Positions 33,192-63,419 of a stretch of 64,000 bases of DNA are shown here, piece by piece. This DNA is from Photorhabdus sp. CRCIA-P01 (GTDB taxonomy: Bacteria > Pseudomonadota > Gammaproteobacteria > Enterobacterales > Enterobacteriaceae). Every line of letters starts with the position of its first letter. Position 1 is the stretch's first letter. Both the position numbers and the translations under genes were made by a program. Under the pieces are notes generated by a model, which ran no database searches, was not told the DNA's origin, and was given only the letters and a program-made list of their open reading frames with translations. Location of the stretch: positions 62,001 to 126,000 of the forward strand of contig NZ_NMQR01000008.1 of the NCBI RefSeq assembly GCF_003545805.1. The letters are read 5' to 3'.

Positions 33192-33459
33192 TGTATTTTT
33201 ATTAACCAGTTAGACAATAAAACGTAATTTGTCATCTGTCGCCAATGAATTAGAATTTGCCAGTGATAGTGCCTTTACAATATTTTTCAAGAAAATGACC
33301 GGTCGATCACCAAGGGAATATATGTCTGCTTATAAGGAACGTAATTATTGAGATAATATGCAAGAAATTGCCGACATCAAAAGGACTATTCATCAAAGTA
33401 ACTATTCACTATATGAACATAGATGCCGGCAAATATATCAAATAAAGAAGATAATCAAA
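33192..33459. other. Gap between MFS remnant and ERIC copy
   Basis: No gene recognised. Together with the ERIC copy (33460-33586) it makes up the 442-bp space between the broken transporter and pirB. A short open frame at 33358-33594 runs into the ERIC and is not credible. Confidence 0.5.
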
Positions 33460-33586
33460 TATACCCTATGGATTTCAAGATGCATCGCGACGGCAAGGGA
33501 GCGAATCCCCGGGAGCATAGCAAACTATGTAACCGGGGTGAGTGAGTGCAGCCAACAAAGAGGCAACTTGAAAGATGACGGGTATA
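33460..33586 (-). repeat. ERIC palindrome, copy 1
   Basis: 127 bp with TATACCC and GGGTATA ends. The core reads CGAATCCCCGGGAGCATAG and ACCGGGGTGAGTGAG, matching the ERIC (enterobacterial repetitive intergenic consensus) core to which the ERIC-PCR primers bind. Opposite orientation to the other three copies here. It lies 47 bases downstream of the pirB stop. Confidence 0.92.
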
Positions 33587-35324: not shown

Positions 35325-36211
35325 ATTTATTTTCCTCATTAAAATTCAAATAAAATATACCCAACATACATATAAATAAATAAATAAATATTTTCAAAAA
35401 ACAGCATCACACTTAATTAAAGATACTCTTTAACTATCATAGAACCACTATACCCTTCATCTTTCAAGCTGCTGCTTTGTTAGCTGCTTTCACTCACCCC
35501 AGTCACATAGTTATCTATGCTCCTGGGGATTCGTTCACTTGCCGCCTCGCTGCAACTCGAAATCTATTAGGTATATTACCTTTGAAACTTAATTCCCCAA
35601 TATATTACGTGAACTTTACATACCACAATAACTCACCAGAACATTAAGATATCCATATTATAAGTTAGTTATTAATGAGACATATCTAAAACAAATCACA
35701 ACAATATAAAACTATAGCAGAGATATAGCTTGTGTCAACTTCCCGCTTCAATGAAATCACTATTATTTAAGAATTAGTAAAATTATATGAGATATAAACA
35801 ATATATACAAAAACATTAAAATGGAAATTATTGCCATTATGTTATTCACCTAAAATTATAATATTATTCTCGGTTACTATAGTGCTATATAATTCTATTT
35901 TTTATTTTACAAACTGACCTTTATCCAGTGAACTATAATAATTCACAAATTAACTCACAATATTAAAATAATAATAAATAAAACAGCCTAATATCCTGAT
36001 AATATATTTCTATTATATTCGCACAAATAATATCTTTATTACCAATTGATTATATATTTTACAAGATAACGGATGAACATTCCTAAAAAAACTCCCTTTC
36101 TAATGAAAGAAAATTAGCTTAATAATAGCAAAATAATTTTGACCGTAGATTTTAGCCACTCAAATATACTGAATACAACTCATTGGCCTTTCATTACTCC
36201 ACCAATAAACT
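35325..36211. other. 887-bp AT-rich region upstream of pirA
   Basis: Very AT-rich and free of credible genes. It holds ERIC copy 2 (35449-35575) and should carry the pirA promoter between 35325 and 35448, where I could not fix boxes because TATAAT-like strings are common. From 35576 to 36211 I see nothing recognisable; it may be decayed DNA at the edge of the toxin insertion. Confidence 0.5.
35449..35575 (+). repeat. ERIC palindrome, copy 2
   Basis: 127 bp from TATACCC to GGTATA with the core CTCACCCCAGTCACATAG and GCTCCTGGGGATTCG. Almost identical to copies 3 and 4 near 60 kb. It sits 124 bases upstream of pirA; with copy 1 it brackets pirBA in inverted orientation. Confidence 0.93.
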
Positions 36212-58395: not shown

Positions 58396-59373
58396 TTACG
58401 CCTTACTTATCGAAAAGGCCATAACATCACTGAGCTTTTCAGCCCCCAAAGCCAACATCACCAAACGATCGACACCAAGCGCCACACCTGCACACTCCGG
58501 CATCCCTTGTTTCAGGGCGCCAACCAAATTTTCATCAATCGGTCGAACAGGTAAAACTAACTCTGCGCGTTTACGGTTATCCTGTTCAAAACGCTGACGC
58601 TGCTCATGACTATCAGTTAGCTCACGGAAGCCATTTGCCAATTCAACGCCTTTAAAATAGACTTCAAAACGCTCTGCCACCCGATGATCTTCTTTACTGA
58701 TTTCCGCCAGAGAAGCCTGAGAAGCCGGAAAATGATAGATAAAAGTTGGCTTTTCAGTACCGATATGCGGTTCAACACCAACAGCAAACAAAAGTTGCAA
58801 TAAAGTATCTCGATCTTCTTCTACATCAGCAATATTACTCAGATCCAATTTGGCGGCGACTTCACGCAACTTTTCTTTCTCTGCTGATAGCGGGTCAATA
58901 TCCAAATAACGCAGGAAAGCCTGTTGATAAGAGAGTGATTCTGCATTTTCACAGTCAAGGATCTGTTGAAGTAAGTCATCAACTTCATTCATCAGACGAT
59001 ACATATCGTAGTGAGGCCGATACCATTCCAGCATGGTAAATTCAGGATTATGATAACGCCCCGCCTCTTCATTACGGAAGCAGCGACCGAGCTGATAAAT
59101 AGGGCCGCTTCCTGCCGCCAGCAGGCGCTTCATGTGATATTCCGGGCTTGTCATCAGATAAAGAGTCATACCATCCGCAGCACCTGGACCAACAAACTCC
59201 GTCTGAAAAGGAAACAATTGAATATCAGTCACTGTAAACTGACCCATCGCAGGCGTTTCAACTTCCAATACCCCACGATCTGCGAAAAAGCGCCGTATTT
59301 CTGCTAAAATAGTCGCTCGTTTCAACAAGTTGGCGATAGGTGCGCTTGGCTGCCAGTTTGCTGTTTCGCTCAT
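58396..59373 (-). CDS. epmA: EpmA, EF-P lysylation enzyme
   Basis: Class II lysyl-tRNA-synthetase-like enzyme that attaches (R)-beta-lysine to elongation factor P. 325 aa from [10 protein letters not shown] as in E. coli; 20 earlier in-frame codons are not used. Motif 2 [22 protein letters not shown], motif 3 [12 protein letters not shown]. It lacks the tRNA-binding N-terminal domain of LysRS, the key difference. Divergently placed to frd, as in E. coli, though two extra genes now separate them. Confidence 0.96.
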
Positions 59374-59513
59374 GTAAATGACTCCAAAATAAAACCAAAC
59401 GTGCAGTCTACCTGCATCACACATATCAGACAAATTATTACCGTCAGATAAACAATAAAATAGTGATCGATTTTGCCTGACACAACAAAGCCAATACCAA
59501 ACAAAACCACTAT

Positions 59514-59930
59514 TTACTCTAACAGAGTTATCAATTTAAAGTGGCAAAATCCGTCCATATTGGTTTTATCAGGTTTAATATAATTAATACCTTTTATGCT
59601 AAGCCTAGTCAGATATTTTCCATTATCTGCCTTTAGCGCTATTACATTATCGTCAACATCTTCTACAGTAAACGTAGAAGAAGCATCAATATTCAATTTT
59701 GCAGCTTCAATATAATTACCACCAGGCCGTTCAACTCGACTCAAATAGAGCCCATTGTCTGCCCGAAGTGCCATCGTATAAGCATTAAATAGCGTCACTA
59801 CATACCGTGAAGAAGTACCAAGTGTATATCTTCCAGCCTGGATGTAATTAACCTTTCCTTGACTGAATCGACTCAAATAAAGTCCATTATCTGCCATCAA
59901 TGCGATAGTGTGCTCTGATAATGCCATCAT
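59514..59930 (-). CDS. Three-repeat beta-trefoil (fascin-like) protein, paralog A
   Basis: 138 aa, unknown function. Three repeats of about 44 residues each open with an [17 protein letters not shown] strand: [15 protein letters not shown] (about 8), [15 protein letters not shown] (about 52), [15 protein letters not shown] (about 95), followed by NYIxAxK and a Phe/Tyr strand. This three-fold pattern is that of a beta-trefoil, like the fascin and lectin families. No signal peptide or membrane segment. Close paralog 600 bases away. Possible carbohydrate or actin binding is inference only. Confidence 0.8.
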
Positions 59931-60026
59931 ACCCTCCGTTTAAATATAATTAATTACTTAGAGAATACCATCTAAACCTCATATCAACTTTCTATGATCA
60001 TAGAAATAAAACTCCCTTATTGAATA

Positions 60027-60154
60027 TATACCCTTCATCTTTCAAGCTGCTGCTTTGTTGGCTGCTTTCACTCACCCCAGTCACATCGTTATCTATGCTC
60101 CTGGGGATTCGTTCACTTGCCGCCGCGATACATCTTGAAATCCATAAGGTATAT
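60027..60154 (+). repeat. ERIC palindrome, copy 3
   Basis: 128 bp with TATACCC and GGTATA ends and the ERIC core CTGGGGATTCG. It lies 97 bases upstream of paralog A (transcribed to the left). The right arm ends with a variant (GCCGCGATACATCTTGAAATC) unlike copies 2 and 4. Confidence 0.93.
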
Positions 60155-60378
60155 AATTATTAAACAACCAGAAGCAATTGTCATATTTAAATTAAAAGTA
60201 AGATATTATCAGAAAATTGAAAAATAATTTAAAACGATAATTATAATATTACCAATACATTAATAATCAAATCATTATGAAATATAATTAATATCTTATC
60301 CGGTGTATTAAGTGACTAACTCTATTGTTTTATTATTAAAATAATAGTGGTCAGTTTTACTTGACCACCACAATACTC

Positions 60379-60505
60379 TATACCCTTCATCTTTCAAGCT
60401 GCTGCTTTGTTGGCTGCTTTCACTCACCCCAGTCACATAGTTATCTATGCTCCTGGGGATTCGTTCACTTGCCGCCTCGCTGCAACTCGAAATCTATTAG
60501 GTATA
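60379..60505 (+). repeat. ERIC palindrome, copy 4
   Basis: 127 bp, nearly identical to copy 2. It ends 26 bases after the stop of paralog B (60531), so it lies in that gene's 3' untranslated region and may act as a long RNA hairpin there. Confidence 0.93.
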
Positions 60506-60530
60506 TAAACAAAAATCATCCATTATCCAA

Positions 60531-60944
60531 TTACAATTTTATAACTTTAAACTGGCAATACAAATCTAAATCGTACTTATCCGGTCTAATATAGTTAAAA
60601 ATACCACCTGCATTGATCCGACTCAGATATTTACCATTATCTGCACACAAAGCTATTACATTATCGTCGATATATTCTAAAGTAAAATTAGAATAAATAT
60701 CAACATCTGATTTTGTCGCCGCAATATAATCGCCACCCGCCAGAGAGACCCGACTTAAATAAAGGCCATTGCTTGCACGAAGTGCTATTTTATTGTAACT
60801 CAATTGTGTTGCGGAATATTTTGTATAAATATCAATAATAGATTTATTAGCTTCAATAAAATCAAGCCCTCCTCCTCGATCAATTCGGCTTAAATAGCAT
60901 CCATTATCTGCCTGTAATGCAATAGGACTACTTGATAATCCCAT
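60531..60944 (-). CDS. Three-repeat beta-trefoil (fascin-like) protein, paralog B
   Basis: 137 aa, same architecture as paralog A: repeats at [30 protein letters not shown] and VIALCADNGKYLSRI. The third repeat of both begins with the same DDNVIALxADNGKYL. Two Cys (positions about 16 and 103) are not in paralog A. No signal peptide. ATG with AGGAGAATATT-like site upstream. Function unknown. Confidence 0.8.
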   Translation of the reverse strand: MGLSSSPIALQADNGCYLSRIDRGGGLDFIEANKSIIDIYTKYSATQLSYNKIALRASNGLYLSRVSLAGGDYIAATKSDVDIYSNFTLEYIDDNVIALCADNGKYLSRINAGGIFNYIRPDKYDLDLYCQFKVIKL

Positions 60945-61622: not shown

Positions 61623-63419
61623 GTGCAAATCTTTAATGCCGATCTCGCTATTATCGGAGCCGGAGGCGCTGGTCTACGTGCCGCAATTACCGCCGCTGAA
61701 GCTAATCCTCAAATGAAGATTGCTCTGATCTCAAAAGTTTACCCAATGCGTAGTCACACAGTGGCAGCAGAAGGTGGATCAGCAGCCGTCACCCAAGCTC
61801 ACGACTCCTATGACTTCCATTTCAACGACACAGTATCCGGTGGTGACTGGTTATGCGAGCAAGATGTTGTTGAATATTTCGTCGAACATTGCCCGACAGA
61901 AATGATCCAACTAGAACAGTGGGGCTGTCCGTGGAGCCGTAAAGAAGATGGTTCCGTCAATGTGCGTCGTTTCGGTGGTATGAAGATAGAGCGTACCTGG
62001 TTCGCTGCGGATAAAACTGGCTTCCACATGTTACATACGCTATTCCAAACCTCTTTTAAGTATCCTCAAATTCAACGCTTTGATGAGCATTTTGTCCTCG
62101 ATATTCTGGTGGATGAAGGACAAGCACGCGGCTTGGTTGCACTAAATATGATGGAAGGCACCAAAATTCAGATTAGGGCTAATGCCGTTATTATGGCAAC
62201 CGGTGGCGCAGGCCGTGTATACCGTTACAATACCAACGGCGGTATCGTGACCGGTGATGGTATGGGCATGGCATTCCGTCACGGCGTACCACTGCGTGAT
62301 ATGGAATTTGTTCAATATCATCCAACCGGCCTGCCAGGTTCCGGTATCCTAATGACAGAAGGTTGTCGTGGTGAAGGCGGAATTCTGGTCAACAAAGATG
62401 GCTACCGCTATTTACAAGATTATGGCCTCGGCCCTGAGACTCCATTAGGCAAACCTGAAAACAAATATATGGAACTGGGTCCCCGTGACAAAGTCTCTCA
62501 GGCTTTCTGGCATGAATGGCGGGCCGGTCGTACTCTTTCAACTCCGCGTGGCGATGTGGTTTATCTGGATCTACGCCATTTGGGAGAGAAGAAATTACTT
62601 GAACGCCTACCCTTCATCTGTGAACTGGCAAAAGCGTATGCCGGTGTTGATCCCGTTAAAGAGCCCATTCCGGTCCGACCTACCGCACATTACACTATGG
62701 GCGGTATCGAAACTGACCAGAAATGTGAAACCCGTATTAAAGGGCTGTTCGCTGTTGGTGAATGTTCTTCTGTTGGCCTGCATGGTGCAAACCGCCTTGG
62801 TTCCAATTCTCTGGCTGAATTGGTGGTCTTTGGCCGTCTGGCTGGTGAAGAAGCAGTAAAACATGTTCAACAAACCAAACCTGTTAATGACCGCGCATTG
62901 GATGCCCAAGCACGTGATGTAGTCGCACGTTTGAACAACTTACTGAAACAGGAAGGGGCGGAAAGTTGGTCAAAAATCCGTGATGAAATGGGTATCTCAA
63001 TGGAAGAAGGCTGCGGTATCTATCGTACTCCTGAACTCATGCTAAAAACGATCGATAAGATCACTGAACTAAAAGATCGCTTTAAACGGGTGAAGATCAC
63101 TGATAACACCAATGTGTTCAATACTGATCTACTGTACACCATTGAGCTAGGCTTTAGCCTGGATGTGGCTGAATGTATGATTCACTCCGCAATAAACCGT
63201 CAAGAGTCCCGTGGCGCTCATCAACGTTTAGATCAAGAGTGTACCGAACGTGACGATGAAAATTTCCTAAAACATACGCTTGCTTTCTATAAGCCTGGAG
63301 GTGTCCCTCACCTGGAATACAGCGATGTAAAAATCACCAAATCCACACCCGCAAAACGTGTATACGGCGGTGAAGCCGCGGCACAAGAGAAAAAGGATAA
63401 GGAGCAGGAGAATGGTTGA
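61623..63419 (+). CDS. frdA: FrdA, fumarate reductase flavoprotein
   Basis: FAD subunit that reduces fumarate to succinate in anaerobic respiration. 598 aa. GTG start, as in E. coli, with GGAG upstream. FAD loop [27 protein letters not shown] (His for covalent FAD about residue 45), active-site block [13 protein letters not shown] and [19 protein letters not shown]. Overlaps frdB by 8 bases. Confidence 0.97.

Follow-up and report, generated by a model that had tools for sequence, protein, structure and literature searches.

The stretch of Photorhabdus sp. CRCIA-P01 DNA analyzed here (64,000 nucleotides of contig NZ_NMQR01000008.1, positions 62,001 to 126,000; hereafter, the window) carries two small open reading frames (ORFs), genes a and b, between two genes that we take, from their families, to be epmA and frdA. 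The twin paralogs of 137–138 aa announced in a preliminary description of this DNA were indeed present as ORFs, and their products were 53% identical. The locus is composed as follows:

58396..59433, minus strand: epmA (presumed), the left border of the a/b locus
59514..59930, minus strand: gene a, an ORF of 138 aa encoding a predicted leaderless beta-trefoil with three 44-aa repeats
60531..60944, minus strand: gene b, an ORF of 137 aa encoding a predicted leaderless beta-trefoil with three repeats
61623..63419, plus strand: frdA (presumed), the right border of the a/b locus

The motif IALxADNGxYLSR, initially assigned to six repeats, was exact in three of them and differed by one residue in the remaining three, whereas the spacing of about 44 residues held: the repeat period was 44 residues (132 nt), with a single spacing of 135 nt in b. 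Shifted against themselves by 44 residues, the proteins gave 36 (a) and 22 (b) identities, which none of 2000 residue shuffles reached; the shuffles attained at most 18 and 20, respectively, so that b lies closer to the chance limit than a. The repeat table covers 17 of the 22 proteins compared, that is, all except G001_b, G003_a, G008_a, G009_a and G023 (genomes are designated by G numbers and paralogue classes by letters).

Structure prediction gave a 12-strand beta-trefoil for both a and b with high confidence; the mean predicted local distance difference test (pLDDT) score over the first ten residues was 76 and 69 in the two models. In both, the first predicted strand begins at residue 8, which leaves no visible signal peptide; this reading of the models, made without a signal-peptide predictor, agrees with the preliminary description. 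The nearest solved folds were the third trefoil of human fascin 1 (residues ~259–383; identity of 18–21% in the rows listed), which ranked first, or tied for first, among the structures matching the two models, residues ~157–299 of the 299-residue agglutinin 1jlx, which we take to come from Amaranthus caudatus (identity of 17–18%), CBM92 (7zoh, 7zon, 7zoi) and FRG1 (2yug, 8i0w), a eukaryotic nuclear protein. CBM92, which binds beta-1,6-glucan, is a trefoil of three subdomains like a and b (profile similarity E-value = 4.6e-6), but its modules are joined to a carbohydrate-active enzyme, whereas a and b are stand-alone ORFs. The Fascin profile (PF06268) yielded 17.6 and 17.1 bits for the window proteins, below the curated cut-off of 23.1, and the FRG1 profile (PF06229) yielded 26.5 bits for a and 18.5 bits for b against a cut-off of 27, so that both were below it and a missed it narrowly; a relative from G1022, a genome of the sister genus (probably Xenorhabdus), passed the Fascin cut-off with 25.6 bits. 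FRG1 (19) and Fascin (15) were the commonest Pfam matches among 23 family members at E ≤ 0.01, while no ricin-type (CBM13, QxW) match appeared among the Pfam matches listed up to E = 5, and NCBIfam matches were at chance level. A Fascin family search of the strain's own genome gave no match, but 14 controls likewise gave none. Thus, the fascin- or lectin-like beta-trefoil proposed at the outset was borne out by prediction and comparison, with fascin domain 3 and the agglutinin among the nearest structures, and a and b are best explained as single-domain paralogues related to the fascin/FRG1/CBM92 group of trefoils.

Matches to this family were found at the epmA-frdA locus, as genes or remnants, in all 12 genus genomes searched; in five Photorhabdus records, identity was 91–87%. 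Three paralogue classes, a, b and c, were distinguished, of which c was nearest to the sister-genus gene. Intact copies comprised a and b in G000 and G004; a, b and c in G003, G008 and G009; a, b and c together with one broken copy in G001; a and c in G002; b alone in G006; and b and c with a remnant in G007. Only a remnant was found in G005, G010 and G011 (three of the 12 genomes). The remnants best matching class a (L050 of G005, L051 of G007, L054 of G010 and L055 of G011) retained the C-terminal 44–61 residues between epmA and frdA. According to the evaluation of substitution rates, intact copies of all three classes had low ratios of nonsynonymous to synonymous substitutions (dN/dS) across species, which indicates that a, b and c are real, maintained genes. 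The median dN/dS was 0.26 for class a (21 pairs, range 0.08–1.08), 0.14 for class b (28 pairs, 0.08–0.23) and 0.16 for class c (15 pairs, 0.06–0.24), compared with 0.07 for epmA and 0.08 for glpQ (36 pairs each); the class a maximum of 1.08 came from one pair of the 21 (G003_a/G009_a) with very small distances. The genes are thus under purifying selection, with a held less strictly than b and c. A housekeeping role, the alternative against which homologues were to be checked, is not supported, given the three genus genomes with a remnant only.

Outside the genus, five of 30 sister-genus genomes had a match: a c-like gene between frdA and epmA in G1034, a 31-residue remnant by epmA in G1026, and matches at other genomic places in G023, G1020 and G1022. 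On the question of a restriction to Photorhabdus and Xenorhabdus, the family was found at the epmA-frdA locus only in 12 of 12 genus genomes and two of 30 sister-genus genomes (one of them with a remnant). Among the 27 best-scoring epmA loci outside the genus, 23 showed frdA and none of these 23 a trefoil match (E up to 1e-5), the other four being without visible frdA; the epmA-frdA gaps of G023 (L074) and G139 (L089) gave weak matches only (E = 0.06 and weaker). With protein a as the single query, five of 295 genomes of the family Enterobacteriaceae matched, three of them from the genus, and a profile search, own genome included, matched four of 394 genomes in the order, two of 398 in the phylum and two of 369 in the class; the relatives in G299, G325 and G558 described below belong to the hits of these wider samples. 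In E. coli, epmA and frdA are presumably direct neighbours. The earlier claim of an accessory insertion between them has to be corrected, since the locus is conserved, as genes or remnants, in 12 of 12 genus genomes and the genes are no new acquisition of this strain. A recent insertion or mobile-element cargo at the window locus is ruled out by the same 12 genomes together with the c-like sister-genus gene in place.

In a tree of 26 proteins (midpoint root, for drawing only), a (100/99) and b (99/99) formed separate groups, and three sister-genus sequences with 63–69% identity joined c (85/92, open branch). This grouping, together with the locus data, suggests that the c-like form is probably the oldest and that a and b probably date from within the genus or from before it. 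Since no third (c) match was found in the genome of the window strain, which retains a and b, c was probably lost there; G006 has b only. With protein b as the tblastn query, searches for a phage or plasmid origin gave no match among phage records and, among plasmids, a single weak one from Acaryochloris that covered 53% of the query (E = 8e-3). A relative from G299 used as a query gave no matches in phage or plasmid records, and that from G1022 gave no plasmid matches; a scan of viral contigs returned 57 pattern stretches, none of which was confirmed, and PHROGs returned matches with E = 0.054 and 0.097 only.

The family had already appeared in print. In the accessible part of a 2008 study (PMC2422844), plu4122 of P. 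luminescens TT01 is listed as a putative toxin that "contains Fascin domain, function unknown"; it was chosen by motif similarity and then assayed, Galleria homogenate producing a 6.3-fold (±2.8) increase in a reporter driven by its upstream region (fragments of 250–400 bp), and the authors proposed interference with actin bundling. Three P. asymbiotica copies, the "Fascin domain" proteins pau03744, pau03746 and pau03747, are named in the accessible part of a 2009 paper (PMC2717986). An exact copy of the 26-nt promoter motif printed for plu4122 occurred once within an 11-kb stretch of G006, immediately upstream of its b gene, which lies between epmA and frdA and is 90% identical to window b. 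This ties both papers to the epmA-frdA locus and plu4122 to class b, so that locus, class and promoter motif are shared through G006 b; similarly, G001, which is presumably P. asymbiotica, has three full genes (a, b and c) besides its broken copy, equal in number to the three pau genes. No further paper on plu4122 or the pau genes was found beyond these two, and in the literature on Photorhabdus with fascin or beta-trefoil, no other paper on the protein was recognized by title and abstract start. Consequently, the statement that no such Photorhabdus protein had been characterized needs to be narrowed: the gene set is real, conserved and of a known kind, in print since 2008 and 2009, and is uncharacterized as far as these searches show.

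What distinguishes the family is the site equivalent to that of CBM92. According to the accessible part of PMC11039641, glucose is held by a Trp-Glu pair in each CBM92 subdomain, joined in the beta subdomain by Arg955 and by a residue given as Asp959, and some CBM92 members also lack the WExF motif. By alignment and our own residue count, the Trp and Glu correspond to Tyr34 and Ser35 of the repeat unit, and Arg955 and residue 959 to Lys28 and Asp32; the aligned CBM92 chain sequence has Asn at 959, where PMC11039641 gives Asp. In the 22 proteins tabulated (66 sites; G1020, G1034, G1022 and G299 were left out), the Trp-Glu pair occurred at no site, the place of Glu was always taken by Ser, Thr or Cys, and no protein contained any Trp at all. 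Because the pair is replaced at 66 of 66 sites and Trp is missing throughout, neither CBM92 nor the QxW lectins fit, and WExF becomes [YFSH][STC]x[FY] in the a/b/c family. Lys and Asp were present at all 24 sites of class b and all 18 of class c, accompanied by Tyr at 23 and 17 of them, respectively, and the Lys-Asp-Tyr set was complete at the three sites of G023. In class a, site 1 was Arg-Gly-Ser-Ser in seven of seven copies, while Tyr occurred at site 2 in four of seven and at site 3 in two of seven (Phe in the other five). The site-equivalent residues of the window proteins were KDYT, KDYS and KDYC in b and RGSS, KDSS and KDFC in a. Since the set is lost at site 1 of all class a copies and two of the three sites of window a are without an aromatic residue, class a has probably acquired a different ligand or function by divergence.

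We tentatively favor the reading that these proteins are leaderless, host-directed, probably glycan-binding trefoils of the insect phase rather than actin bundlers, a reading that does not command even odds. Other Photorhabdus lectins are without a recognized signal peptide, and PLL2 and PLL3 occur in the extracellular fraction, according to the accessible part of PMC12203525. Payloads of the Photorhabdus virulence cassette (PVC), an extracellular contractile injection system (eCIS), are described as having 50–70 disordered N-terminal residues in the accessible part of PMC11495950, and with about seven residues before the first strand and no N-terminal leader, a and b are ruled out as such payloads. 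It is the lack of a visible leader, an N-terminus too short for PVC and the leaderless state of other Photorhabdus lectins that lead us to favor a leaderless insect-phase trefoil. Such a protein would be made in the insect phase and, like the leaderless lectins of Photorhabdus, would exit the cell with no need of a signal peptide, either by lysis or along some other route. In b and c, it would bind surface glycans of the host or of competitors at up to three equivalent pockets, each with Tyr where CBM92 has its stacking Trp and with Lys and Asp where CBM92 has Arg955 and Asp959; three pockets would confer avidity or cross-linking. We infer the ligand, the location and the export of the a/b family alike.

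Several observations weigh against this reading. A fold in common with lectins shows no function, fascin ranks level with lectin, and the extracellular location is itself presumed. The Trp-Glu pair of the CBM92 site is missing at all 66 sites of the 22 proteins, and the distant relatives carry Pro, Pro and Glu (G1022) or Asp, Ser and, at site 3, Trp next to Ser with no Glu (G299) at the Tyr positions, which makes the pocket Tyr a feature of the Photorhabdus-type branch. Of the plu4122 motif, window b has the TATTTAAAT half upstream but lacks the -35 half, so that to regard the window genes as induced is to extrapolate from plu4122. The plu4122 reporter was heterogeneous in larvae, with few bright and many faint cells (accessible part of PMC2422844). 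The remnant-only state of three of the 12 genus genomes shows that the genes are dispensable.

A role in or on the bacterium and not aimed at the host, in which its own polysaccharide or another cytosolic ligand would be bound, is the unlikely alternative that survives best. It would agree with the lack of a visible export signal and with the missing -35 half upstream of window b, and in G558, another genome of the order, a related trefoil is a module of a polysaccharide-degrading enzyme (GH5). However, plu4122 was induced by insect homogenate (PMC2422844), and the confinement of the family at the locus to 12 of 12 genus and two of 30 sister-genus genomes, with none at 23 other epmA-frdA loci, speaks against such a role. 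Still less likely is a fascin mimic that would enter the insect cell cytosol and there bind F-actin or disturb it, as in the 2008 hypothesis for plu4122. Single trefoils that bind actin exist (hisactophilin), fascin domain 3 heads or shares the head of the structural matches, FRG1 and Fascin lead the Pfam matches, and class a is neutral to basic (isoelectric point (pI) 6.1–9.2). Nevertheless, both window proteins miss the Fascin cut-off, class b is acidic (pI 4.9–6.5), and the seven or so residues before the first strand, compared with 50–70 in PVC payloads, offer no delivery signal; moreover, human fascin 1 has four tandem trefoils per chain (four beta-trefoil domains are also stated for fascin in PMC2422844), whereas a and b have one each. 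A leaderless cytoplasmic defense or feeding deterrent like the fungal cytosolic trefoil lectins, acting on grazers (nematodes, amoebae, insects) after ingestion or lysis, is improbable, as the matches supporting it are no better than for many trefoils and it overlaps the favored glycan-binding reading, from which the target alone differs.

If b and c bind glycans, they would constitute a compact, easily made insect-phase lectin beside the studied Photorhabdus beta-propeller lectins, and a fascin/CBM92-type trefoil would be shown to change its binding chemistry while keeping the three-fold design. If actin is bound, the bacterial fascin-mimic hypothesis of 2008 would gain a test. Under either reading, paralogues with graded pocket loss are natural controls. 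What makes the family interesting is its altered three-fold site, together with the ready tests, rather than its discovery.

The neighborhood also contains repeats, for which we assume the name enterobacterial repetitive intergenic consensus (ERIC); the following were located in the window, with no strand assigned:

33459-33586 and 35449-35576: two further ERIC-like repeats of the window
60027..60160: ERIC-like repeat 1, about 100 bp upstream of gene a
60379..60515: ERIC-like repeat 2, directly 3' of gene b

On the minus strand, in the intervals 60341-60506 and 59983-60154, both locus repeats resembled the Rfam families Ysr49 and V_AS5 with scores short of the gathering threshold, and these small RNA (sRNA) families may be partly repeat-derived. 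In three of the 21 intact Photorhabdus copies, an ERIC-like repeat ended 14–18 nt before the ATG:

L045:5750-5897 (G006)
L052:8605-8748 (G008)
L053:5884-6029 (G009)

In G006, the -35 half of the printed plu4122 motif falls inside the repeat; thus, a mobile repeat may supply part of the insect-induced promoter. The Shine-Dalgarno sequence directly adjoins the printed -10 half, and since transcription from the usual distance would then begin within that sequence, the printed motif may not be a true promoter. A promoter scan gave 15 sites against 14.2 in shuffles, and none of the papers listed dealt, by title, with an ERIC-derived promoter in Photorhabdus. A more specific proposal, which we regard as doubtful, is that the family may form a separate class of lectins, namely leaderless trivalent trefoils whose sugar pockets have a Lys-Asp-Tyr-Ser/Thr/Cys set instead of the CBM92 Trp-Glu pair, with three Photorhabdus paralogues differing in the number of working pockets and, in some species, with part of the promoter provided by a mobile ERIC-like repeat.

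As regards the other neighbors, the stretch whose genes were listed (55.7–64 kb of the window) held, besides a and b, an MFS gene, glpQ, epmA and frdAB and no toxin genes, so that the proximity to toxins raised in the preliminary description was not found there. Among the distant relatives, the G299 protein (L057:8672-9100) is a stand-alone trefoil of 142 aa encoded among genes of the conjugation or type IV secretion system (T4SS) type, the neighbors being read from ORFs alone; its surroundings look like an integrative element, and the gene was present in one of nine genomes of the genus of G299. In G325 (L058:4343-6049), a 568-aa protein has an enzyme of the endonuclease/exonuclease/phosphatase family joined to a trefoil at its C-terminus, and this trefoil scores above the cut-offs of Fascin, FRG1 and DUF7910. 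One repeat of the a/b family is resembled by the 35-residue peptide Hact-3 (PDB 7lt7; E = 7.2e-5), which we take to be from the coral Heliofungia actiniformis and which may represent a fragment of a larger animal protein with a trefoil. The related name Hact-4 denotes a Heliofungia actiniformis peptide in the accessible part of PMC12767216.
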